Source: a virus
DNA length: 27,311 bases
Direction: 5' to 3' (one strand)
IMG/VR virus record: IMGVR_UViG_3300043446_001097
Span: 1 to 27,311 of that record
Both the position numbers and the translations under genes were made by a program. This document shows, in pieces, positions 623-23,874 of this stretch; the first letter of the stretch is position 1, and each line of letters starts with the position of its first letter. The notes below the pieces were generated by a model, which saw nothing but the letters and a program-made list of their open reading frames with translations, ran no database searches and was not told the DNA's origin.

Positions 623-774
623 ACATCAACGATCGCGTCAACCGCATTGAAGACCGCGCCACCACAGGCGCCGTCATCATCGACATCGACCACGAGGTTG
701 GCTGTGCTCTCATCCAATACGATGAAGGCGGCACCGGCTGGTGGCCGCTTGATTGTTTGGAGCTGCAGCAATGA
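619..774 (+). CDS. Small phage protein (51 aa), unknown function
   Basis: This 51-residue frame starts at ATG 619, overlapping the stop of the repeat protein (ATGA), and its own stop overlaps the start of the next gene at 771 (ATGA). The double overlap strongly supports a real, translationally coupled gene. The N-terminus is charged and probably helical (NDRVNRIEDR). The rest looks like a small beta structure (AVIIDIDHEVGCALIQYDEG, then GWWPLDCLEL), reminiscent of an SH3-like barrel. Its place just before the tail terminator gene suggests a head-tail or tail completion role, but that is inference. Confidence 0.65.
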   Translation: MNINDRVNRIEDRATTGAVIIDIDHEVGCALIQYDEGGTGWWPLDCLELQQ

Positions 775-1196
775 CCACCAAACGAGAGACCATCCTCGCT
801 GCATTGCGCAGCAGCCTCACCGGCACCGTTGGCGTCGGCACCAGGATCTACCGCAGTCGCGTTGAGCCGATCGCTCGACAGGAAAGCCCTGCCATCGTCA
901 TCGAACCGGTCATTGATGAGCCCGCGTTGCAAACACACCTAGCAACGATTGACTGGACGCTAAGAGTTCGGTTCACAATCATTGTCCGCGGCAACACGCC
1001 TGATCAGCTTGCTGATCCAATCATTGAAGACATGCACAGTAGGCTGATGGCTGATCCAACCATCGGCGGGCGTGCTATCGACATCTTGCCACTGCCGACA
1101 CGCTTCAACTTTGTTGAGGCTGACGGCCCCGCTGGCGAGATCGCATGCGACTATCGTGTGATGTATCGCACCCAGCTGGCAAATCTCACTTCCTGA
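771..1196 (+). CDS. Tail terminator / minor tail protein (lambda gpU-like position)
   Basis: The 141-aa product starts at ATG 771, with GGAG eight bases upstream and an ATGA overlap with the previous gene. The N-terminus resembles tail terminator and tail completion proteins (helix with ILAALRSSL, then a strand VGTRIYRSRVEP, then PAIVIEP). The middle has alternating beta strands (TLRVRFTIIVRG) and a helix (PIIEDMHSRLMAD), the usual alpha/beta layout of this family. Terminators form a hexameric ring that ends tail tube growth and joins the tail to the head. The position just before the tail tube gene matches the phage lambda order U-V-G-T-H. The family is assigned from fold pattern and synteny rather than a hallmark motif. 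Confidence 0.7.
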   Translation: MTTKRETILAALRSSLTGTVGVGTRIYRSRVEPIARQESPAIVIEPVIDEPALQTHLATIDWTLRVRFTIIVRGNTPDQLADPIIEDMHSRLMADPTIGGRAIDILPLPTRFNFVEADGPAGEIACDYRVMYRTQLANLTS

Positions 1197-1199
1197 GTT

Positions 1200-1373
1200 A
1201 TGGCTAAGATGATGGACGCATACCACGGGCACGGCGGAACCTATCTGCTGGATCCGAAAACCGGCAGCCGGAAGCTCATCGAGCGGACAGAGCCGGCCCA
1301 ACCCCTCACCACAATCGAGGAATTGAGCAATGCCGCTCCTGAGACGCAAGAGCCTGATCCTGGCGAAGACTGA
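1200..1373 (+). CDS. Small acidic-tailed phage protein (57 aa)
   Basis: This 57-aa frame starts at ATG 1200, three bases after the preceding stop, and ends 44 bases inside the tail tube gene in another frame. It begins MAKMMDAYHGHGGTYLLDP, has a short basic part (KTGSRKLIERT), and ends in an acidic, proline-rich tail (ETQEPDPGED). Small proteins with a GGTYxLDPKTG core are common next to phage tail genes, but I know no function. The long overlap lowers certainty, though the gene fills an otherwise empty 130-bp gap in a tightly packed module. Confidence 0.5.
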   Translation: MAKMMDAYHGHGGTYLLDPKTGSRKLIERTEPAQPLTTIEELSNAAPETQEPDPGED

Positions 1374-2262
1374 GACGACCTACGGCACCAGCGCCAGCCC
1401 CACGGGTAGCGATGCTGTATTGGTGCGCAATCTGGAGATCACACCGCTCGAGAGCGATGTGGTCAGCCGTGACCTGATCCGCCCTTACCTGGGCAACAGT
1501 GATCAGCTGCTGGCCAATCCTCGCGCACGCGTCACCTGTGAGGTTGAACTGGCAGGTTCCGGCACCGCCGGCACTGCGCCGCGCTATGACGCGCTGCTGA
1601 AGGCCTGTGGCATGTCGGCGACTATCGTTGCCAGCACCAGCGTTACTTACGCACCGGTCAGCGCCAGCTTTAGCAGCTGCACCATCGCCTACAACATCGA
1701 CGGCGTGCAGCATCTGCTGACCGGCGCTCGTGGCACATTCACCATGAACTGCCAGCTGGGTCAGATCCCGACGCTGCAGTTCGAGATGACCGGCATCTTC
1801 AACACTCCGACCGATACAGCGCAGCCATCGGTCACCTACGCGAACCAGGCAACGCCTCTGATCTTCCGCGATGGCAACACCAGCGCGTTCAGCTTCATGG
1901 GCTACAGCGGGTGCCTGATGTCGGTTGACATGAACCTCGCCAATGAGGTGGTCTATCGTGAGCTGATCGGCTGCACCAAGCAGGTGCTGATCACCGATCG
2001 CCGCCCTGCTGGCACGTGCGTGATCGAGGCCCCGACGATGGCCGCCAAGAACTTCTTTACCGATGCGCTTGGCACATCAACCGGCAGCCTGTCATTCCTG
2101 CATGGCACGACAGCCGGCAACCGTGTTACGTTCACATCGCCCCAGTCGGACGTGGGCCAGCCGACCTATTCTGAGTCGGACGGCGTTCAGATGCTCAACA
2201 TTCCCTACGTTGCGCTTCCGACCACTGCCGGCAATGATGAGTTCAGCCTCGCCTTTACCTGA
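1330..2262 (+). CDS. Major tail tube protein (lambda gpV-like)
   Basis: The 310-aa product starts at ATG 1330 with a GAGG ribosome site nine bases upstream. Its N-terminus (LAKTETTYGTSASPTGSDAVLVRN) is typical of siphovirus tail tube subunits, which begin with a short strand, 'E..YGT..tPtg.dAi', and a long loop. The rest is beta-rich with many Thr/Ser and no charged helices, as expected for a protein that stacks in hexameric rings around the tape measure. The length is within the range of tube proteins that carry an extra domain. It sits between the terminator and the tail assembly chaperone genes, as in lambda. Expression should be high, but no promoter is seen directly upstream. Confidence 0.85.
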   Translation: MPLLRRKSLILAKTETTYGTSASPTGSDAVLVRNLEITPLESDVVSRDLIRPYLGNSDQLLANPRARVTCEVELAGSGTAGTAPRYDALLKACGMSATIVASTSVTYAPVSASFSSCTIAYNIDGVQHLLTGARGTFTMNCQLGQIPTLQFEMTGIFNTPTDTAQPSVTYANQATPLIFRDGNTSAFSFMGYSGCLMSVDMNLANEVVYRELIGCTKQVLITDRRPAGTCVIEAPTMAAKNFFTDALGTSTGSLSFLHGTTAGNRVTFTSPQSDVGQPTYSESDGVQMLNIPYVALPTTAGNDEFSLAFT

Positions 2263-2267
2263 TTCCT

Positions 2268-2612
2268 ATGGCATTCGTCATCTCGCAATCGCAAAGCTAC
2301 AGCTGGCCGGTTGCGGTTGAGTTCCCAGTTGATGGCGGTCGATTTGATCGGCAGACGTTTGACGCACAGTTTAAGCGTCTGCCGCAAGATCGAATCCGTG
2401 AGGTGTGGGATCGAATCAAGGCCGATGAGTTGGACGATGACGGACTGTGCAATGAAATCCTTGTTGGATGGTCCGGCATCACCGATGACAAAGGCGCTGA
2501 GATTCCCTACAGCGAGAAGGCGCGAGCAAACCTGTTGAAGGTGCCGCTTGTTGCTGCTGCGATCGTTGGTGCATGGCTTGACAGTCTGAGCAAGGCGAAG
2601 CGAAAAAACTGA
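2268..2612 (+). CDS. Tail assembly chaperone, short form (gpG-like)
   Basis: The 114-aa product begins at ATG 2268, five bases after the tail tube stop. It starts with a beta segment (SYSWPVAVEFP) and continues with helices (DRIREVWDRIKADELDDDGLCNEILVGWSGITD), a pattern common in small tail assembly chaperones of the gpG type that bind the tape measure before the tube polymerises. It ends SLSKAKRKN-stop. The last codons carry an A-AAA-AAC slippery heptamer at 2603-2609, and the -1 frame is open straight through to base 2932, so this is the non-shifted product of a G/GT pair. Function rests on position between tube and tape measure genes plus the frameshift signal. Confidence 0.8.
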   Translation: MAFVISQSQSYSWPVAVEFPVDGGRFDRQTFDAQFKRLPQDRIREVWDRIKADELDDDGLCNEILVGWSGITDDKGAEIPYSEKARANLLKVPLVAAAIVGAWLDSLSKAKRKN

Positions 2613-2932
2613 TTGATGCCGCCGAGCATTGGGCAGGTGGCAGCGTAATTGACGACACTCAGGATGACGCAGCCGTCCTGGGTGTTGTTTTTGAGGATGA
2701 CGAAAAACCTGATCACTTTGAGGTGTTCCCTGAGAACTGGGAAGCCATCACAATGTGGACGCGGATCAGTACGCAATGGCGCGTGAGCATGGCCGGCGCC
2801 ATCGGCCTTGATTACACGGTTCTGCGTTGGCTGTTTGATCTATACGAGGTCAAGGATCAACGCGAACTGTTGGAAGACCTGCAGACGATGGAAGCGGCTG
2901 TCTTAGAGTACAGAGCACGGCAGAAGGACTGA
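2268..2932 (+). CDS. Tail assembly chaperone fusion made by -1 frameshift (gpGT-like)
   Basis: A -1 shift at the heptamer 2603-2609 joins the gpG-like frame to the frame ending at 2932. This gives a fusion of about 221 aa: 114 residues, then 107 starting LIDAAEHW. The downstream frame has a stop at 2579-2581, so it is open only from 2582 and has no good start near its beginning; a GTG at 2723 would lose a third of it. Its C-terminal half (STQWRVSMAGAIGLDY) matches the TQWR...GLDY signature I associate with the DUF1799 phage family found before tape measure genes. In lambda the rarer GT product recruits tube subunits to the tape measure. The two-frame layout is seen; the shift itself is inferred. 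Confidence 0.78.
2603..2642 (+). promoter_or_regulatory. Programmed -1 frameshift signal: slippery heptamer plus stem-loop
   Basis: The heptamer A-AAA-AAC (2603-2609) lies in the correct phase of the upstream frame (codons AAA AAC), immediately before its TGA. After a 7-nt spacer, TGCCGCC (2617-2623) can pair with GGTGGCA (2636-2642), a 7-bp stem with one G-T wobble and a 12-nt loop. Heptamer, spacer and stem agree with the canonical -1 frameshift design. Confidence 0.75.
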
Positions 2933-2937
2933 GCCAG

Positions 2938-5900
2938 ATGGCCTTCAATCTTGAGACAGCATTGCGCGTCGTCGCCAAGGTTCAAGGCCTGAATGAGTTC
3001 AAGGCGCTCACTGATAATCTGACGGCGACCGGTGCAGCGTCGCGTGATAGCAAGGCAAGCCTGCAGCAGCTGAGCACGGAATCAGCACGTCTGACGCAGG
3101 AGACGACGCGGGCATCTGGCGGCGTGAGAGCGCAGACGACAGCGCTGCAGGTGTTGACCGCTGCGCAACGTCAAGTCGGGCAGGAGACGGCCAAGACGGC
3201 GGCAGCAGTCAAGGGCCAGGCGGTCGTCGTGCAGGGCTTGACGGCTGATGCCGACCGCCTGGCGCAGGGCAGCGGTAAGGTTGTTGGCGGCATCAAGGGG
3301 CAGGCGGCAGCGCTGCAGGATCTCGCTGGCGCATCACGCAACAGCGCTGATGCACTGCAGAACGTTCAACAGGAGTCGGCTCAGCTCAGTGGCGCCGTGT
3401 CGCAACTGCGCAGCAATGCCGCGGGCGCATTGGATGGTCTGACCGGATCTGTGGCGAAGAGTGCGCGACAGATCAAGGATCTGCAAAGCAGCCTGCAGCC
3501 AACTGATGCGGCATTGTCTCAGCTGCGCGATGAGGTGCTGCAGGTTGGAGCTGCTAGCAAGCAAACTGAAAGGTCACTGGCACAGCAGGCGGAAGCACTG
3601 AAGACACTGCGCAGCCAAGCCGAGATCAATGGAGACGTCTACAACCAACTGACCGCAGACATTGAAAGGTTGAGTGCAACGGCAAAGGGATCAGCCGGCG
3701 CTGCACGTGAAATGGCTGCAGGGCAGGATGCGGCGGGCAAGTCGATCAACAACGGCTCAAAGGCGATTCAGGCGCAAGTGAAGGAACTGCAGAACCTGCA
3801 GAGCAACCTACGCAAAGGGAGCACAGAGTATCAGAACATCGGCCGTCAGATTGATGATCTCAAGGCGAAGGCCGCATCACTGGACCTCAGCAAGGGTCTG
3901 AACATCCCTGGAGGGATCGGCAGTGCCGCTACATCTGGTGCGCGCAACCTACTGCAGCTGAGGCGACAGCTTGCGCAGTCAATGCCAGGGCGTGTCGTAT
4001 TGGCTGGCGAGGGACTGGCGACTGCTGGCCTTGCCGGTGGCGCTGCAGCGGGCGCAGGCGCGGCGCTCGGCGGCTTGGCATCAGGGATGAGCCAGGTGCA
4101 GGCTGGCGTTGATGCGCTGGCCAACTTCGTGCGGATGACGCCGATGGTTGGCGAGAAGATGTCAGGGCCAATCATGCAATCAGCTGATGCGATTGCTGAT
4201 TTCGCGGGCAAGATCGCATCAACTCAGGCGCAGCTTGCTGATCTATCGGCACCGTTCCAGGCTGTTACTCATGCGATCCAATCAATCGGGCCTGAAGCAG
4301 CAGCAGCTGCTGGCGTTGCGTCACTTGCCTTTGCGTCGATCTATTCAGTAGCGGCGCCAAAGATCAAGGCACTGCAGAATGATTTGAGGATTGGATACAA
4401 GGGCGTCAGCGATGAAGTGCAGCGGATGCTGGAGGAAACATCGAAGATTGTTGTCAGTCCGGCATTCCGCAAGGGCGCATTAGAGGAGTTGCGGCAGGGT
4501 GGTTTGCAACGTCTTGGAGAGGCCGCACCTGGCAGTGCAGAGGCACGCCGTGCGGCTAACACGGTGGCAGTCGCTGAGCGTGAGATTGCAGAGATTCAAG
4601 CGGAGCAGAATCAACTGTTAGAGACTGCAAGGCAACGTCAGAATGCGTCCACTGATGCACTCAAAGCTCAGGTTCAGGTTGCCCGCGACCGACTGGATGT
4701 GCAGCGCAATCTGACGGCCGAGACGAAAGCAACAGCAGATCAGCAGAGGTTGGAACGTCAGATTGCCGGGTCTGTACGTCGTAATCAGGAGCGCTTAGCG
4801 CGAGAGGAAGCACGACAGGAACGACTCAGGCGGCGCGCCGCAGCTGCGTTTGCGCCATCGGCTGTGCTGGCGTTGCCAGCCGCTGGCCAGACGGCGTTCA
4901 GAGGTGCCGTTAGCGCTGAGGGCATCGGTGGCGGCGCCCGTCGCCTTGGCGCATACGAGGTGGCCGGCACAGGCCAGGCGATCGGCGCACCGATGGCCGG
5001 ATATAGCGCAGAGGCGCGCGCTGGACTGGCGCAGCAAGCTGATGCCGCTAACCGCACAACCGGAGCACTAGCCAAGCTGTTTATGGAGCTTGACCGGGTA
5101 CAGAAGGCAAGCAATGGCAGCATCGGCAGCCTGAACCAGCAACGTGCCGCATGGGACGCAATCAGACTGGCCGTCAACCCTGCAGCGCCAGCGTACGAAA
5201 CGGCGAAGAATGCAATCAGCAAGCTAGATGATGAGATCAAACAGCTGACGCAATCACCGAAGCAAGCTGGCAATGCAATCGCTGATCTGTTCAGCCGTAT
5301 TGACAAGTTGACGGCAGAGAGCAACGGCAGCATCAGTAGTTTGCAGCAACAGCGTGCTGCATGGTCTGAGCTGCGTAATATCGTCAACCCTGCAAGCTCT
5401 ACATTCGCCAGTGCATCGGCAAAGATAGAGCAGCTTGATGGCAAGCTGAAGGAACTTAGCGGATCAGTGGAGAAGCCACGCGGCGCGCTTGCTGGCATCT
5501 TTGCTGAGATCAAGAGGCTGGAGGGCGCCAGCAATGGCAGCATCGGCAGCCTGCAGCGTCAGCGTACGGCATGGGAAGCGTTGCGCGTAGCCGTGAACCC
5601 TGCGGCACCGGCGTACAAGACTGCGACCGATCGCATCAAGGATCTTGATGATGCGTTGAAGAATCTTAACGGGACACAGGAGCAGGCAGCTCGTCGTGGG
5701 ATGGGACGCGAGGCGCTAGGTGGCGCGATGGGTGCATTGGCGACCGGGGGCGGCCTGCAGTCTGCGGTGGGCGCAGCAGCTGGTACGCTCGCGTTCTCAG
5801 GTGGTCCTGGAGGTATCGCAGCCGGCGCGGCGCTGACTCTCGGCGCTGGATTGACCACACAAAGCGTCGCTAGTGCTCGCGAGCTTGAGGCACAGAGCAG

Positions 5901-8900
5901 GCGGCTGCGTGTGATGACTGATGACAGCGCCGCGCTACAAAGCCAAATTGTTGCACTTGTGCGCGAACAGAACTACCTAGCTGGATCTACAGAATCAACA
6001 GCAGCTGCATACGATGTACTGCAAGCTGGATTCACAAAGACAAGTGACATCATTTCGATCTTAAAAGCATCAACACTCGGCGCGGTTGGTGGATTCACTG
6101 ACATCACGACAGTTGCCGATGCCGCCACTTCCATCCTGAACGGATATGGATTATCAGCGTCAGAGGCTGGCCGCATCGTTGACCAGATGAAAGCATCAAC
6201 TGACGATGGCAAGATCAGCATGGAGGAATACGCGCAGCAGATCGGTAAGGTGGTTCCATCTGCTGCCGCCGCCAAGCTATCTCTTGATCAGATCAATGCG
6301 GCGATTAGCGCATTAACGGCGCAAGGCGTACCTGTTGAAACAACGTTTGCGGGTATCAATCAGATGATCAAAACGATCATCAAGCCAACCAAGGAAGCTC
6401 AAGAACTTGCCAAGTCGCTGGGACTAGAGTTTAACGCTCAAGCTCTTGCCGCAAAAGGCTTAGGCGGATTCCTTGAGGATGTCGCCAAGAAGACAGGTAA
6501 AAGCTCTGATTCTCTCAGTATCCTGTTCAGCGACATTGATGGATACAAGGCAGTTGTCGGCCTACTGAACGATGACCTAAGCCGCTTCAACAAGTTCCAA
6601 GACAATCAGACGCGAGCGATTGGCAGCAGCGCGACAGCAGCTGAGAAAGCGATTGATCCGCTCAAGAGGTTTGATAATGCCTGGAAAGATTTGAACGCCA
6701 CGCTCGGAAATCTGGTATTGCCTGGATTGACCGAGGTAATCAATCAATCAAGCAAGGCCATTGGATTGATGGCGCGACTTGCAGATACTCCACTGGTGAG
6801 AGCGGGTTTACAGGTTGGTCAGTTCGCGATGACGCGGATGCTACCAGGGTCGGATTTATACATGTCAATGTTGGATAGAAACAAGTTGCCGGCACCTGGC
6901 CAGGCTTTGACAGCACCTGCAGGAGGTACAATCCCTGCGCTGAAATCGCTGTTAGACCTGATCGGTGGCCAGCCTGGCACGACGCAGCGCACAGCACCAA
7001 CCGCGGCACCAGCTGGTCCGCGCACGCAGCCAGCTGGTGCGCGGCCTGCCGCAACACAGCCTCAAAGCGCTGCAGATAAAGAGAAGGAAGACAAGCAGCG
7101 CGCAGACGCAGAGGATCGCATCGCAAACGCACGCGAACAGCTCCTAGAGCGCCTTAGCGACCTTGAGCAGCGCATGATTCAACGACGTAGTCAAGCGGAA
7201 CGCGAGCTAGCAGATGATCGCATCAAACTTGAACAGCAGATAGCAGATGCCGCAATGGCAAGCCGCCGCCGTGCAATAGAAGCCGCCGGCGGCGATGTTG
7301 GCGTCATCGACATTCAACAGCGAATCATTGACATCAACCGCACCTATCAGGCTGCAGTGCTTGACGCACAGCGCAAATACGATGAAGAACGTAAGCAAAC
7401 AGAGAAAGAGATTGAAGACTACAAAGTCAACACAGCTAAGGAGATCGGCAACGTAATCGAATCCAGCGCCGGCCGTGCTGCAGGCGTCATCGCTCGCGTT
7501 GGCAGCACTGGCCAATCCACAGGCCCCCACCTAGACGCACGATGGACTGATGGTCGCCCTATCACCGCTGCAGACGCTGACCGTTACCTACGCATCAATG
7601 GCCGTGCACCTAGCTCATTCGGGGTCACCAGCCCCTACGGCCCGCGTCAGATGTTCGGGCGATCGTTCCATGCCGGCGTAGACATTGGCGCACCATCAGG
7701 CGCCGGGATCTCGCTGCAGGGTGGCGCGTCACTGCTCCGCAATCTTGGATTTGATCCAGCCGCTGGCAATCAGCTGGAGATCATGACCCCTCAGGGTCGG
7801 ATGCGACTGCTGCACCTTCAACCCGGAGCGGCTAGGCCGTCCGGTGGTGGCCTGCAGATGCCCGACCTCTCGGCTGTCGCTGGTCAGAGCGCATCCATCA
7901 CCGCGGCACTGGGGCAGCGTCGTGATGTGGCGATCCAATCAGCAGGCGTCACCGCGGCGCGTGATACAGCAGATGCCCTGGCGGCTCAAACCGTTGAGCT
8001 TGACAAGCAACGCAACACCGGCCGCGAACAGCTGGAAATGATGGTATCAATGGCAGCTCTGCAGCGCCGCGGCTTGTCGCCTGCAGTAGCTGAAGCGCGA
8101 CTGAACGCGCAGAAGCTCGCACAAGAGGAACGCGACCGCCTGATCGGAGCGCGTGAGCAGCTTGCAATTCAAGCTGCAGCAACCAATGCGAGCGCTTTGC
8201 AGGTAGAGACGGCACGGCAAGGCATGACGCTGATTGATGATCGTCTGTCGAAACAGCCTGAGATCATCGCTCAGATTGAAGCGGAAACGGCAGCGCTAGA
8301 GGTGCAGCGTTCTGCACTGGAACGCAACAAGCAGCTGACCGATGGCATCGCCAGTGCAATCGGTAGCGGCATGGCGGAAGGTATGAACCTGCTGTTCAGT
8401 GGCACTGAGAATTGGGGCGCAAGCCTCAGGAAGATTGCATCAGGTGTGCTGGAGAGCATCGCAAAACAGCTGATTCAGATTCTGGTCATTGAGCAAGCCA
8501 TCAGCGCCATTAAGGGCGTGCTGAATGCGCTGTCGCCTGCACCAGCCGCCGGGCCAGCTGTATCAGCCAGTGGCGCCGCGTCAATCGGTGCGGCAGCTGG
8601 CAGCGTTCAGTTCGCCAATGGCGGCATCTTCGATGCAACGAACACCATCAAGCCGTTCGCGATGGGCGCCATCGTGCGCAATCCGACGCTGTTCAAATAT
8701 GCCGACGGTGGAGCCTTCCAGCAGGGACTGATGGGCGAGGCCGGACCTGAGGCGATCATGCCACTGCGTCGCCTGCCAAACGGCCGACTAGGTGTTGAGG
8801 CAATGGGCAGCACCACAGGTGCATCAGCGCCGATCACGGTCAATGTCAGCGTCGATGCAACAGGCAGCCAAGTGCAGGGCAATGCTGGCCAAAGTCAGGC

Positions 8901-8979
8901 GCTGGGTCGCGCTATCGCGATCGCTGTACGCCAGGAGCTGGCGAATCAGAAGCGTCCCGGCGGCTTGCTGGCGCCCTAA
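2938..8979 (+). CDS. Tail tape measure protein with embedded M23-like peptidase domain
   Basis: The product is 2013 aa, starting at ATG 2938 five bases after the chaperone fusion. Residues 1-340 are coiled-coil (Gln/Ala/Ser-rich heptads). Gly/Ala-rich hydrophobic stretches lie near 360-390, 455-480 and 925-980. Residues 710-919 are three 70-aa repeats. Residues about 980-1220 resemble the TP901/PhageMin tail tape measure core. An acidic-basic coiled coil spans about 1370-1510. Residues 1522-1630 carry M23-type peptidase motifs in permuted order: STGPHLD (H1531, D1533), then FHAGVD (H1578, D1582), then LLHL (H1626). The C-terminus has the GEAGPEAIMPLRR motif shared by many tape measures. The protein sets tail length and enters the host envelope during DNA injection; the peptidase part would open peptidoglycan locally. 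Confidence 0.93.
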   Translation: MAFNLETALRVVAKVQGLNEFKALTDNLTATGAASRDSKASLQQLSTESARLTQETTRASGGVRAQTTALQVLTAAQRQVGQETAKTAAAVKGQAVVVQGLTADADRLAQGSGKVVGGIKGQAAALQDLAGASRNSADALQNVQQESAQLSGAVSQLRSNAAGALDGLTGSVAKSARQIKDLQSSLQPTDAALSQLRDEVLQVGAASKQTERSLAQQAEALKTLRSQAEINGDVYNQLTADIERLSATAKGSAGAAREMAAGQDAAGKSINNGSKAIQAQVKELQNLQSNLRKGSTEYQNIGRQIDDLKAKAASLDLSKGLNIPGGIGSAATSGARNLLQLRRQLAQSMPGRVVLAGEGLATAGLAGGAAAGAGAALGGLASGMSQVQAGVDALANFVRMTPMVGEKMSGPIMQSADAIADFAGKIASTQAQLADLSAPFQAVTHAIQSIGPEAAAAAGVASLAFASIYSVAAPKIKALQNDLRIGYKGVSDEVQRMLEETSKIVVSPAFRKGALEELRQGGLQRLGEAAPGSAEARRAANTVAVAEREIAEIQAEQNQLLETARQRQNASTDALKAQVQVARDRLDVQRNLTAETKATADQQRLERQIAGSVRRNQERLAREEARQERLRRRAAAAFAPSAVLALPAAGQTAFRGAVSAEGIGGGARRLGAYEVAGTGQAIGAPMAGYSAEARAGLAQQADAANRTTGALAKLFMELDRVQKASNGSIGSLNQQRAAWDAIRLAVNPAAPAYETAKNAISKLDDEIKQLTQSPKQAGNAIADLFSRIDKLTAESNGSISSLQQQRAAWSELRNIVNPASSTFASASAKIEQLDGKLKELSGSVEKPRGALAGIFAEIKRLEGASNGSIGSLQRQRTAWEALRVAVNPAAPAYKTATDRIKDLDDALKNLNGTQEQAARRGMGREALGGAMGALATGGGLQSAVGAAAGTLAFSGGPGGIAAGAALTLGAGLTTQSVASARELEAQSRRLRVMTDDSAALQSQIVALVREQNYLAGSTESTAAAYDVLQAGFTKTSDIISILKASTLGAVGGFTDITTVADAATSILNGYGLSASEAGRIVDQMKASTDDGKISMEEYAQQIGKVVPSAAAAKLSLDQINAAISALTAQGVPVETTFAGINQMIKTIIKPTKEAQELAKSLGLEFNAQALAAKGLGGFLEDVAKKTGKSSDSLSILFSDIDGYKAVVGLLNDDLSRFNKFQDNQTRAIGSSATAAEKAIDPLKRFDNAWKDLNATLGNLVLPGLTEVINQSSKAIGLMARLADTPLVRAGLQVGQFAMTRMLPGSDLYMSMLDRNKLPAPGQALTAPAGGTIPALKSLLDLIGGQPGTTQRTAPTAAPAGPRTQPAGARPAATQPQSAADKEKEDKQRADAEDRIANAREQLLERLSDLEQRMIQRRSQAERELADDRIKLEQQIADAAMASRRRAIEAAGGDVGVIDIQQRIIDINRTYQAAVLDAQRKYDEERKQTEKEIEDYKVNTAKEIGNVIESSAGRAAGVIARVGSTGQSTGPHLDARWTDGRPITAADADRYLRINGRAPSSFGVTSPYGPRQMFGRSFHAGVDIGAPSGAGISLQGGASLLRNLGFDPAAGNQLEIMTPQGRMRLLHLQPGAARPSGGGLQMPDLSAVAGQSASITAALGQRRDVAIQSAGVTAARDTADALAAQTVELDKQRNTGREQLEMMVSMAALQRRGLSPAVAEARLNAQKLAQEERDRLIGAREQLAIQAAATNASALQVETARQGMTLIDDRLSKQPEIIAQIEAETAALEVQRSALERNKQLTDGIASAIGSGMAEGMNLLFSGTENWGASLRKIASGVLESIAKQLIQILVIEQAISAIKGVLNALSPAPAAGPAVSASGAASIGAAAGSVQFANGGIFDATNTIKPFAMGAIVRNPTLFKYADGGAFQQGLMGEAGPEAIMPLRRLPNGRLGVEAMGSTTGASAPITVNVSVDATGSQVQGNAGQSQALGRAIAIAVRQELANQKRPGGLLAP
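5065..5694 (+). repeat. Three 210-bp repeats inside the tape measure gene
   Basis: Units begin at 5065, 5275 and 5485, exactly 210 bp apart, encoding three 70-residue copies (residues 710-919). Each copy has a helix, the motif SNGSI-SL, QQRAAW or a close variant, VNPA, and a Lys-Leu-Asp/Asp-Leu-Asp helix. The copies have diverged, so duplication is older than that of the repeats at the start of the window. Confidence 0.9.
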
Positions 8980-12015: not shown

Positions 12016-15000
12016 CTTACCTAATCGGCTCCGGCGGTGGCAGCAGTAGCGGCAAGGGTGGCGGAACGGCGCAGCAGTATGTGCCATCTGAGGCGCCTGA
12101 TAGCCTGGATTCAACGCAGTACGCAACGATCGTAGATGTCATCAGCGAGGGCGAGATACAGGGCTTAGTTGATGGCTATAAGTCAATCTACTTAGAAGAC
12201 ACACAGCTGCAGAACAAGGACGGAACCTATAACTTCAAGAACGCGGAAGTCGTCACACGCAATGGCACACAGGATCAAGCTGCAGTGCCATTTGCGCCTG
12301 ATGCACAGAGCACTGTCCCTGTCAATGTCACCGTTGTTCAGGTTTCGCCAGTTACGCGCACGATCACTGATCGCACGGTTGACGCTGTGCGCGTCACGAT
12401 CTCAACCCAGGCGCTGCAAGAACTGACAGACAAGGGCGACGTCATTGGCGCATCAGTGCGACTGCAGATCCTGACGCAATACAACGGAGCTGGGTTTAAT
12501 GTCGTAATCGACAACACGATCAGCGGCAGAACCGCCGACCTGTATCAGCGAGACTATCTCGTAGAACTGAGCGGGCAGTTCCCTGTTGAGATCCGTGTTG
12601 TTCGCGTCACGTCAGACAGCGCAAGTGCAAAGCTCAACAATGAGATCATCTGGTCAAGCTATACAGAGATCACACGTGCGCGGTTGCGTTACCCAAACTC
12701 TGCGCTTATCGCCTGGCGCATCGACGCGCAGCAGTTCAGCAACATTCCCTCTCGCGCATACCACGTGCGCGGAATCAAGGTGCGCATTCCCAGCAATGCA
12801 ACCGTCGATTCAGCGACCGGCAGATTGACGTACGCAGGTGTATGGAATGGAACGTTTGCCGCTGCTCAGTGGACGAATGACCCAGCATGGTGCTTATGGG
12901 ATTTGCTTACATCAACGCGCTATGGATTTGGGAGTCAGATTCTGACGCCATCGGAGCAATCTAGTTTCAATGGCAATGCAAGCCGTCTTGATAAGTTCGC
13001 CTTCTATGCTGCCAGTCAATACTGCAGCGAGCTGGTAGACAATGGCTACGGCGGCAAGGAGCCCCGTTTCTCCTGCAACATCAACATTCAGACACCAGAA
13101 GAGGCGTATAAGCTGATTAACAGCATGGCATCGGTATTCCGTGCGATGCCATTTTGGGCGGCAGGATCTGTGACTGTATCGCAGGATGCACCATCTGATC
13201 CTGTATATCTCTTCGGCAATGCAAACGTAATAGATGGCATTTTTGACTACGCCAGCAGCAGCCTAAAAAACAGGCCTACCGTTGTGCTGGTTTCATGGTT
13301 TGACATCAACGCCAGGGACAGAGCTTATGAGTCAGTAGAAGATCAGGAACGCGTCGCAATCTATGGCGCCATCACACGCGAGATAGAAGGCTTCGCCTGT
13401 ACCAGCAGAGGACAGGCGCGCCGCGTGGGCGAGTGGATTCTGTATTCTGAGTGGAATGAAGGCGAGGTCGTTTCATTCTCGGTCGGCATTGAAGCCGGCG
13501 TTATGGTCCGACCTGGGCACGTTATTTCAATATCGGACACACTGCGATCATCTGACCGGCGAAGCGGTCGGATCAGTGCCGCGACATCAACAACAATCAC
13601 AGTAGACAGTGCAACCGGCCTGACCTATGTAACAGGCTCGACTCTCTCTGTCATCCTGCCGACTGGCGTTGCCGAGAAACGAACCGTCACAAGCATTGCG
13701 TCTGGTGTGATCACAGTATCAGCAGCGTTCAGCGTGACGCCGAACGTGAACAGCATCTGGATTTATGAGACACCAGACCTGCAGCCAAGTACATGGCGTG
13801 TCTTAGGCGTTCAGGAAGAAGATGGAGCCAGGTACTCTATCTCTGCGATCTTCTATGACGCGTCGAAGTATGCGCACGTTGAGCAGGGATTGAATCTTGA
13901 GCCGCGCAATACATCGCCGCTAACCGTCATTCCTGATCCACCGGCTGCGATCACAGCTGAAGAAGTGTTGTATGACAGCAACGGCAGGGCAAGCTCCAAG
14001 ATCATCGTGAGATGGCAGCCTGTTGTAGGCATTGGTCAGTATCGCGTGATGTGGCGTTATGGCGACGGCAACTGGTCAACGATCACAACACCTGGCCCTG
14101 ATTACGAGATACTTGACTCGCAATCTGGCCGCTACAGCATCAAAGTCTTTTCGGTCAACAAAGCTAACCTGAGATCATCTACTGCAGCGGCTGAGATTCC
14201 GCTATTTGAAGCGCAGGGCAAGACTGCTGCACCAGAAACACCGACCGGAATCAGCCTGATCCCTATTGATCAGGCCAGCGCAATCCTCAGCTGGACACGG
14301 GCAACAGACCTCGATGTGCTACTCGGCGGCAAGGTGCTGATCCGCCACAGCCCAGCAATGACCGGCGCACTGTGGCAGGACTCGCAGGAGATCGTCGCAG
14401 CAGCAGCTGGCAGCCAGACACAGAAGCAGGTTCCGTTGCTCAGTGGCACCTATCTGATCAAGTTCGAGGATGACACTGGGCACCGATCGGTTGATGCGGC
14501 ATCTGCAGTAACGACGCTGCCGACCCCTCAGCCGCGTCTGCTGGTGCAGAGCTACAGAGAAGATCAGGAAGCAACGCCCTTCCCTGGTGTCGGCACTGAC
14601 ATGATCTACAGCGCAGAATATGACGCGCTGATGCTGGCGCTTGGCGTCTTGATTGATGACCTCGCGACTGATGGCGATTTCGACGCGCTGGTGTCCATTG
14701 ACGGTGAAAGCTTTGCGGGTTCCGGGTCGTATCAATTCGCCAGCACTCCCGACATGGGAGGTGTCTATGACGTCAATATGCGGCGCTACTTCGTCACCAG
14801 GGCGCTGCTGTTAAATGAGCTGATTGACAGCATGGTGTCCGATGTTGACAGCTGGAGCGATGTATTCGGCGCTACGACTGAGCCAGACTACGTGAGCGCA
14901 ACCCTCTATGTGCGCAGCACAAACGATGATCCATCTGGTACGCCAACATGGAGTGACTGGGTGGAGTTCGCTAACGCCACAAAACGCGGGCGAGCATTTC

Positions 15001-20133: not shown

Positions 20134-20327
20134 GGGCTACCCTCCAGCTCAGCAGCAATACCCAGATCCGCCTGATGCTGCAAGTAGTCTGCTGCAGCGC
20201 TGTAACCAGCGCGGCGCAGATCATGGCCAACTTCCTGAATGGCCACAATCGCAGATCCTCTCAATGTGCGGCCGGTGCGCGGTGATGTCGCAAGACGCAC
20301 CATCAACCGCTCAGTTAGGTCACTCAT
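20130..20327 (-). CDS. Small protein of unknown function (65 aa)
   Basis: The start ATG 20327 overlaps the stop of the RTX-like gene (ATGA). The product is MSDLTERLMVRLATSPRTGR, then a basic/Gly segment, then a helix-rich part (GHDLRRAGYSAAADYLQHQADLGIAAELEGSP). It has no membrane segment or known motif. A TTG at 20339 is possible but would need four extra residues before the better ATG. The 4-nt overlap supports coupled translation with both neighbours. Confidence 0.6.
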   Translation of the reverse strand: MSDLTERLMVRLATSPRTGRTLRGSAIVAIQEVGHDLRRAGYSAAADYLQHQADLGIAAELEGSP

Positions 20328-21010
20328 TCCACCCACCAAAAGCTAGTGTTGGCTGGCATCGTGTCAATGTAAGTCCACGCAAGCAACGCGACTGGCTGAC
20401 CGTTGGCGTATAGCTCGGTGCCTGTGCGGTAGAACCCAGTGGCTGATTCGTACCGCTTGAACGTATAAGCAGCTCGCTTGTCGAGGCTTAGCCTGTCTTC
20501 CTTTGGGTTGAAGTCAGTAATAATGCAGCGCTCGCCGCTGCTGATGTTGACGTTGAAAAGATCGCGACCGGTGCCGCCTTCCATCACATCGCGGCCGGTT
20601 CCTCCATTCAATACATCATTGCCAGCTCCGCCAATCAATGTGTCGTTACCTTCGGCTCCAGTGAGATAGTCGTCGCCGTCGTCGCCGTTCATGCGATCGT
20701 CGCCTTCGCCGCCGAGTAATACATCCCTGCCGGCACCGCCTGAGATGTTGTCGTTACCGATTCCACCCCAGATGCGGTCGTTGCCATATCCTCCGCTGAT
20801 GTCATCAGCTCCTTGGCCGCCATTGATGATGTCGTTGCCGTCACCTCCTTGGATGATGTCATCGCCGAGGTTTCCGGTAATGTGATCATCGCCGGCCGTT
20901 CCGTAGTAAACCCGCCGAGGGTATCGGTTGACGGTAACGATGGGGCGCGTCGTTGTCGTAACTTGATTGATGACAGTGTACGTTGCGGTTTGTGTTTGTG
21001 TGACTTGCAT
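20324..21010 (-). CDS. RTX (calcium-binding nonapeptide repeat) protein
   Basis: The 228-aa product has an N-terminal Thr/Gln/Val-rich region (residues 1-35), then thirteen nonapeptide repeats (36-152) of the form GGxGxDxU, typical of RTX beta-rolls that bind calcium. The C-terminal part (153-228, with IITDFNPKEDRLSLDKRAAY and LYANGQPVALLAWTYI) matches the end domain that often follows RTX repeats in cyanobacteria. No enzyme domain, signal peptide or autoprocessing site is seen, so this is a stand-alone binding protein. The start shares one base with the dcd stop (TAATG), and the stop overlaps the next gene (ATGA). A virion or surface role and calcium-dependent folding are inferences. Confidence 0.85.
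   Translation of the reverse strand: MQVTQTQTATYTVINQVTTTTRPIVTVNRYPRRVYYGTAGDDHITGNLGDDIIQGGDGNDIINGGQGADDISGGYGNDRIWGGIGNDNISGGAGRDVLLGGEGDDRMNGDDGDDYLTGAEGNDTLIGGAGNDVLNGGTGRDVMEGGTGRDLFNVNISSGERCIITDFNPKEDRLSLDKRAAYTFKRYESATGFYRTGTELYANGQPVALLAWTYIDTMPANTSFWWVE
20555..20905 (-). repeat. Thirteen 27-bp units encoding RTX nonapeptides
   Basis: Residues 36-152 of the RTX gene are thirteen consecutive nine-residue units (GGxGxD pattern), i.e. 27-bp periodicity across this span. The units are related in protein sequence but vary at the DNA level. Confidence 0.85.
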
Positions 21011-21522
21011 TAGCCTTTGCTTTGTTGGACGGAAGTGTCGCCGTTGTAGCGGCCGGTGATGGCGTAGCTGCGCTGTGGTATGCCGGCCATCTGGTAAAAG
21101 ATCATCTGGCCAATCTTCATGCCAGGCCACAGCGGCACCGGTTGTAGCTGACGGCTGTTGTGCAGCTCCATGGTGAGCGTGCTGCCATGCCATCCAGGGT
21201 CGCAGTAGCCGGCCATCAGGTGCTCCAGCCCCTCGCGGGCGCGGCTGGACTTCAACAGGAACTGAGCCGCGATGTCATCTGGCAGGTTGAAGACCTCGAC
21301 CGTGTGCGCCAGTACGAACTGCCCGGGGCGCAACAGGTACGGGTTCTCCTGTGTGTGCCCACCCAGTGGGTACGGCACTAGGTCGGGGCCTTCGGCTGAT
21401 TCAATCAGCAGCACGTCGCCGAGGCGGACGTCATAGCTGGCCGGGTTGATCTGCTCACGGTCGAATGGGGTGATCATGCCGCCGGTTGCGCGGGCGGTGA
21501 TCTGCCAGTCGGCGAGGATCAC
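21010..21522 (-). CDS. dcd: dCTP deaminase
   Basis: The 170-aa product starts at GTG 21522, with AGGAGG seven bases upstream and a GTGA overlap with the gene before it. It has INPASYDVRLGD near the N-terminus and the active-site block KSSRAREGLEHLMAGYCDPGW, then LTMELHN. S92, R96 and E119 have the same spacing as S111, R115 and E138 of E. coli Dcd. The enzyme deaminates dCTP to dUTP, feeding the dTMP pathway; the thymidylate kinase gene at 23245 acts in the same route. It is shorter than E. coli Dcd (193 aa), with less C-terminal extension. The two enzymes suggest the phage raises host dTTP supply for replication. Confidence 0.9.
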   Translation of the reverse strand: MILADWQITARATGGMITPFDREQINPASYDVRLGDVLLIESAEGPDLVPYPLGGHTQENPYLLRPGQFVLAHTVEVFNLPDDIAAQFLLKSSRAREGLEHLMAGYCDPGWHGSTLTMELHNSRQLQPVPLWPGMKIGQMIFYQMAGIPQRSYAITGRYNGDTSVQQSKG

Positions 21523-23198: not shown

Positions 23199-23250
23199 AA
23201 TTATCAGCCGCCGTCAGCGCAGTATCGCAGAGTCGTAACAATACTTAACA
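23199..23250 (-). promoter_or_regulatory. Copy 1 of 16-bp motif with -10-like GATAATT
   Basis: On the minus strand TGTTAAGTATTGTTAC (23250-23235) is followed after 29 nt by GATAATT (23205-23199), then ATG 23160. The motif overlaps the tmk stop codon. The spacing (motif, 29 nt, -10-like) is identical in copy 2 (27139-27190). No good -35 is present, so it may be an activator-dependent promoter. Confidence 0.5.
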
Positions 23251-23874
23251 GCTTGCGCAGATCGCCGCTTGGATCGCCTGCGTCACCACATCCGGCGGCT
23301 GTGCCGCGTCAATACGGCGCCAGCCATGCTGCCCCGCTAGCGAGCTGAACCCGTCGCAAACCCGCTGCAGAAAGGCGTCACCGCCGGCTTCGATGCGATC
23401 GGCTGGGCGACCGCCACGGCGACGCAGAGCCTCAGCCAACGGCAACTCCATCAGCAGCGTGAGATGGGGACAGATCCCGCTGGTGGCGATCGCGGCCAAC
23501 TGGTCAATCAGCGGCAGCGGCAGACCGCGGCCATAGCCCTGATAGGCGGCGGTGGAACCACTGAAGCGGTCGCTCAGCACCCAGTGGCCGGCCGCCAAAG
23601 CCGGGGCAATGCACTGCTGTACATGCTGAGCACGATCGGCGGCATACAGCAACAGCTCAGCGGTGCTGCTAGGTGCAGCATCGCCAGGGAAATGCAGCAG
23701 CAGCTGGCGCAGGGCCTGGCCCAGCGCAGTACCGCCGGGCTCCCGGGTCACCACCAGCTCAGCGCCAGGTGGCATCAGTCCACTGGCCGGCAACCAGGCG
23801 CGCAGGCGCTCTAGCTGCGTGGTCTTACCGCAGCCGTCAATGCCTTCCAGCACCAGAAAGCGCCCTGTGGTCAT
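23245..23874 (-). CDS. tmk: Thymidylate kinase
   Basis: The 209-aa product has the P-loop GIDGCGKT (residues 11-18), the TREPGGT loop (43-49), the DR(F) motif at 102-104 in SDRFSGSTAAYQGYGRGL, and a basic LID (RRRGGRPADR, 151-160). It phosphorylates dTMP to dTDP. All active-site elements are present and the length fits the family. The gene's sequence resembles cyanobacterial Tmk closely, e.g. SGLMPPGAEL and AELLLYAADRAQHVQQ, so a host origin is likely. With dcd it supports dTTP supply. A phage copy would override the host level; a rarely seen role in a prophage is the alternative. Confidence 0.93.
   Translation of the reverse strand: MTTGRFLVLEGIDGCGKTTQLERLRAWLPASGLMPPGAELVVTREPGGTALGQALRQLLLHFPGDAAPSSTAELLLYAADRAQHVQQCIAPALAAGHWVLSDRFSGSTAAYQGYGRGLPLPLIDQLAAIATSGICPHLTLLMELPLAEALRRRGGRPADRIEAGGDAFLQRVCDGFSSLAGQHGWRRIDAAQPPDVVTQAIQAAICASC

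Follow-up and report, generated by a model that had tools for sequence, protein, structure and literature searches.

A close counterpart of the locus considered here is the G/GT frameshift of phage lambda, reportedly the subject of the 2004 work of Xu, Hendrix, and Duda. In lambda, G occupies the slot between the tail tube and tape measure genes, a -1 shift near its 3' end leads into T, which has no start of its own, and both a short and a long product are made, according to the literature at about 30 gpG per gpGT. The T1-like phages (e.g., Sushi and Silvanus) have a comparable 'tape measure chaperone' pair, whose T belongs to the same DUF1799 family and which is annotated as a joined G/T CDS. 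A third system, E. coli dnaX, is laid out as a Shine-Dalgarno (SD)-like element, an A_AAA_AAx heptamer, and a stem-loop, a layout that the family of the present locus probably shares; this is a resemblance of mechanism and not of membership, and the dnaX shift shortens its product, whereas the shift proposed here would lengthen it.

Overlapping G and T frames in a lambda-like tail module

The left half of the window (the whole stretch of DNA analysed, a 27,311-base IMG/VR virus record) is occupied by a siphophage tail module that resembles the one of lambda and is encoded on the + strand, in which two overlapping frames, G and T, sit between the tail tube and tape measure genes, as in the G/GT systems (Table 1). 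We take the locus, with high confidence, to be a lambda-type (G/GT) site of programmed -1 ribosomal frameshifting, as the original prediction had proposed: the heptamer, a -1 frame devoid of an early start, and the stem are all present, are conserved in distant relatives, and lie in the syntenic slot. This kind of system has long been known; the new aspects are the member itself, the corrected annotation of its relatives, the covariation support for the stem, and the finding that heptamer and stop are almost always adjacent. What sets the source phage apart from lambda is an A_AAA_AAC that touches the stop, with a covarying stem in its support. Silvanus, too, has A_AAA_AAC immediately before TGA together with a strong stem; the T1-like pair is about 35-45% identical, or less, to the source phage over T.

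Table 1. Features of the tail module and of the G/T junction in the window.
Feature	Position	Strand	Evidence or remark
Tail terminator	774-1196	+	
Tail tube protein, upstream neighbour of G	1330-2262	+	Pfam Phage_tube_2 E=2.8e-20; predicted partner of T
Gene G, tail assembly chaperone, zero-frame product of 114 aa	2268-2612	+	PHROG 569 E=2e-19; PHROG 313 (tail assembly chaperone) E=2e-5; start ATG 2268, by direct reading
SD-like stretch CAAGGCGAA, core AAGG	2591-2599	+	-3.5 kcal/mol here; weak
Slippery heptamer A_AAA_AAC	2603-2609	+	direct reading; in phase, abutting the stop
Zero-frame stop TGA of G	2610-2612	+	direct reading; directly 3' of the heptamer
T, extension in the -1 frame (107 aa past the shift); predicted GT fusion of 221 aa	2609-2932	+	DUF1799, PHROG 680
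Stem-loop: 7-bp stem 2617-2623/2636-2642, 12-nt loop, 7-nt spacer from heptamer	2617-2642	+	
Tape measure protein, 2013 aa, downstream neighbour	2938-8979	+	Pfam PhageMin_Tail E=1.1e-25; predicted client of G
M-, L-, K-, I-, and J-like genes	3' of the tape measure gene	+	

Direct reading bore out every coordinate first given for the module, viz., those of the heptamer, the stem, and the -1 frame at 2582-2932. This frame follows a TGA at 2579-2581, stays open to the TGA at 2930-2932, and has, as had been claimed, no credible start at its beginning, the first possible one past the junction being a GTG at 2723, 38 codons in and well within the conserved T domain. The forecast product lengths of 114 and 221 aa likewise follow from the sequence, with ...KRKN/LIDAAE... 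at the junction of the predicted GT product.

The T protein is recognized by both Pfam DUF1799 (E=1.6e-18, 67.1 bits against a cut-off of 26) and PHROG 680 (E=1.3e-29), and its model (mean pLDDT 88.8) has a predicted fold matching the predicted structures of the T1-like 'tape measure chaperone' proteins; a likeness to ribosomal L20 in the search of solved structures by sequence amounted to chance-level matches only. For G, the identification as a tail assembly chaperone is supported by its PHROG matches and by Pfam Phage_TAC_4, which is matched by 12 of 25 aligned relatives (best 2.3e-5). The G protein of the window itself gave no match to Phage_TAC_4 at E<=1, a search of solved structures by sequence found none for G, and a Foldseek search of its model in the PDB returned no meaningful match. 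Several G and T family labels (PHROG 569/680, NC_016164 gp14, NC_019724 gp15) read 'tail length tape measure protein', which is apparently a misannotation by neighbourhood.

Further features of the window include a 132-base tandem repeat at 11-616 (4.6 copies, cut by the edge of the stretch), which encodes repeats of the type VCWAPELGLLVAVA..GTGNRVMTSPDGITWTTRTSA that have no Pfam match; a 289-aa protein with RTX-type calcium-binding nonapeptide repeats at 20324-21193 on the - strand (HemolysinCabind, E=1e-34); and a nucleotide-metabolism pair, also on the minus strand, comprised of dCTP deaminase-like (21010-21522) and thymidylate kinase (23245-23874) genes.

A slippery heptamer against the stop codon of G

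The last codons of G are CGA (2601-2603), AAA (2604-2606), and AAC (2607-2609), followed by TGA, which sets A_AAA_AAC in the X_XXY_YYZ phase that tandem -1 slippage requires. In-phase heptamers of this form number only 5 in the 5183 codons of the tail genes, so that one lying exactly at the G/T junction is roughly a 1-in-1000 event per codon. A second in-phase A_AAA_AAC, at 13265-13271 in the J-like gene, is probably a chance occurrence, as its -1 frame closes after 12 codons.

Relatives were gathered with T and G queries from viral contigs, isolates, and genome contigs, and yielded 201 loci with a readable junction, comprising 135 distinct junctions in 51 clusters at 80% identity. The G query alone found 49 loci in viral contigs, with identities of 46-100%, and protein identity among the relatives falls to about 35%. 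The nearest isolates are S-CBS1 (T 54%, tube 61% identical) and S-LBS1 (T 40%, tube 52%), and these two together with S-CBS3 show the same A_AAA_AAC-TGA junction, and a stem. The junction pattern recurs in E. coli phages HK578, HK639, and Rtp, Pseudomonas phage AUS531phi, Stenotrophomonas phage Silvanus, Rhodobacter phage RcapMu, and a Vibrio phage. Judging from the nearest isolates, S-CBS1, S-LBS1, and S-CBS3, the host would be a cyanobacterium, probably one of the picocyanobacteria; a genome scan for prophages returned only three metagenome-assembled contigs, two labelled alphaproteobacterial and one Burkholderiales, and yielded no host assignment.

The comparison of the heptamer in relatives had been set beforehand as one point on which the prediction could fail. 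An in-phase heptamer is present at the end of G in all 135 distinct junctions, and this conservation excludes a chance heptamer at the G/T junction. Most of the junctions (118) have A_AAA_AAC directly followed by the stop and 14 have G_GGA_AAC followed by the stop, while the remaining ones place A_AAA_AAC (two) or A_AAA_AAG (one) a codon before it; among the junctions recovered, T is always -1 relative to G. Two Klebsiella Weberviruses, Sushi (L121) and VAC112 (L120), which were found only by a distant T match and lie outside this set, read GCA AAA GTT TAA where G ends (at 1123); T is still in the -1 frame, there is no canonical X_XXY_YYZ heptamer, and Sushi is annotated as a joined gene despite this sequence. 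These Weberviruses may use a different slip site.

The stop after the heptamer varies among the 51 clusters (TGA 28, TAA 18, TAG 4, and one TCA then TAG), and the heptamer lies directly against it in 49 of them, in phages of several bacterial classes. The residue ahead of the KN pair also differs among relatives (R, V, A, E, Q, S, or T), and its codon always has A in the third position if AAA AAC comes next. Such a fixed codon ending is the pattern expected of selection on nucleotides; in these genes lysine is encoded by AAG 154 times versus 66 times by AAA. Further, T residues L1, A4, A5, and W8 are conserved ahead of any start codon in most relatives, which points to selection acting on the fusion.

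Candidate stimulatory elements flanking the heptamer

The 7-bp stem that had been placed 7 nt past the heptamer is paired throughout, with one G-U, and folding prediction gives it as the minimum-energy structure (-15.0 kcal/mol). In the source sequence alone, 25% of synonymous shuffles fold as stably, and the stem is thus not significant singly; its support comes from the family. For the 51 clusters, the 44 nt after the stop codon were compared with shuffles in which the protein is unchanged and codons are sampled according to family usage: the mean minimum free energy is -19.3 kcal/mol versus -13.6 in the shuffles, none of 300 shuffle sets reaches the observed mean, and the junction is more stable than its shuffles in 47 clusters. 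This excess is local to the junction, with windows elsewhere in G and T showing little of it. The relatives' stems are mostly of 7-11 bp, start mostly 4-8 nt past the heptamer, and have a 3' arm that is shifted by one codon among them. In an alignment of 19 clusters, four of eight helix pairs have changed in both arms, and pairing holds in 91% of cells; for example, GCCGTTG stands opposite CAACGGC in L086, and GCCGCTG opposite CGGCGGC in others. On these comparisons of sequence, the downstream stem is to be regarded as real at the family level. An Rfam search of the whole 27,311-nt stretch returned no match.

An SD-like element upstream of the heptamer is an addition to the original prediction. 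When duplex energy with the anti-SD sequence of 16S rRNA was compared with that of synonymous shuffles, the family mean directly before the heptamer was -4.92 versus -4.00 (z = -3.96); the excess is confined to that one offset, and farther upstream the tendency is mostly reversed. Because equally strong absolute energies occur elsewhere in G (e.g., 96 and 120 nt upstream), the evidence for the element lies in the synonymous excess and not in the raw energy. Strong versions (AGGGAG, AAGGAG, or GGGG) are carried by many relatives, such as L020 with AGGGAG 7 nt before its heptamer. This spacing of about 7 nt is one codon shorter than that in dnaX, where AGGGAG lies 10 nt upstream of A_AAA_AAG, and compares with a dnaX-type criterion of 9-14 nt upstream of the shift site. 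The element is a probable stimulator at the family level; that it acts as one in the source phage is doubtful.

Proposed mechanism, alternatives, and implications

What the analysis establishes is that the sequence elements exist, that they are conserved, and that they are under selection; from the protein families and the lambda system (PMC5009743) we infer ribosomal shifting, the balance of the two products, and the chaperone roles of G and GT. A point against the proposal is that the same review reports A_AAA_AAC to be a weak shift site in E. coli, far less prone to slippage than A_AAA_AAG. We propose that most ribosomes would read G to its TGA and release the 114-aa chaperone, whereas a minority would be held at A_AAA_AAC by the stem 7 nt downstream, assisted in many relatives by the upstream SD-like contact, and would slip back one base, bypassing the stop and adding 107 T residues to give the 221-aa GT. 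By analogy with lambda, G might then coat the tape measure protein, GT might use its T part to recruit tail tube subunits, and both would leave before the virion is complete.

The S-CBS1, S-CBS3, HK578, and RTP records list T as a gene of its own, but we see very little likelihood in this reading, in which T would be translated by re-initiation or from a start within it once G has terminated: the first 12 T codons lack ATG, GTG, and TTG in 44 of the 51 clusters, the first of these in the source sequence is codon 39, the conserved N-terminal helix LIDAAEHWA precedes the first T start codon, and re-initiation has no need of the fixed codon choice in the heptamer. It is similarly improbable that RNA polymerase slips on the A run to produce some mRNAs that are short of one base or have gained two, and that are read straight through. 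The run of six A in the source sequence and most relatives (seven in a few) would suit such slippage, but the 14 G_GGA_AAC junctions contain no A run longer than three, A runs never exceed seven before the C, and the stem, at a ribosomal spacing (mostly 5-8 nt), and the anti-SD match are under selection. A sequencing error or recent mutation splitting one gene, for which nothing speaks beyond the broken frame itself, is already refuted by the comparison, in which independent assemblies and several isolate genomes (those of E. coli, Pseudomonas, Stenotrophomonas, Rhodobacter, and Vibrio phages among them) give 135 distinct junctions with the same -1 arrangement.

Within programmed ribosomal frameshifting, a more tentative suggestion, which we consider unlikely, is that the adjoining zero-frame stop is itself part of the signal, with slippage occurring when the stop enters the A site. 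This would be compatible with a heptamer that nearly always adjoins the stop while the identity of the stop varies. It would also help account for the use of A_AAA_AAC, a poor heptamer in E. coli. Were it true, frameshifting would compete with release factors and the GT:G ratio would track the termination efficiency of the host.

The expectation that automatic annotation would split the gene or miss its second half is realized in the records of five relatives: T is started at an internal codon in S-CBS1 and S-CBS3, cut to <50 aa in S-LBS1 (where G is called an ABC-transporter ATPase), begun from an ATT codon in HK578, and not listed in HK639. There is no frameshift annotation in the S-CBS1, S-CBS3, and S-LBS1 records, and the S-LBS1 paper makes no mention of a frameshift (PMC6157547); the RcapMu record carries the note 'potential -1 frameshift'. 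Searches of the full-text literature on S-CBS1 with frameshift and on DUF1799, with subscription papers outside their reach, gave nothing relevant. The gene model is hence wrong or incomplete in the annotated cyanosiphoviruses and several other phages, and is corrected here. The signal, with its heptamer, stem, and SD-like element, is clean and ready for testing in a phage group that probably infects picocyanobacteria, and the adjacency of heptamer and stop across hosts poses a testable question on termination versus frameshifting.
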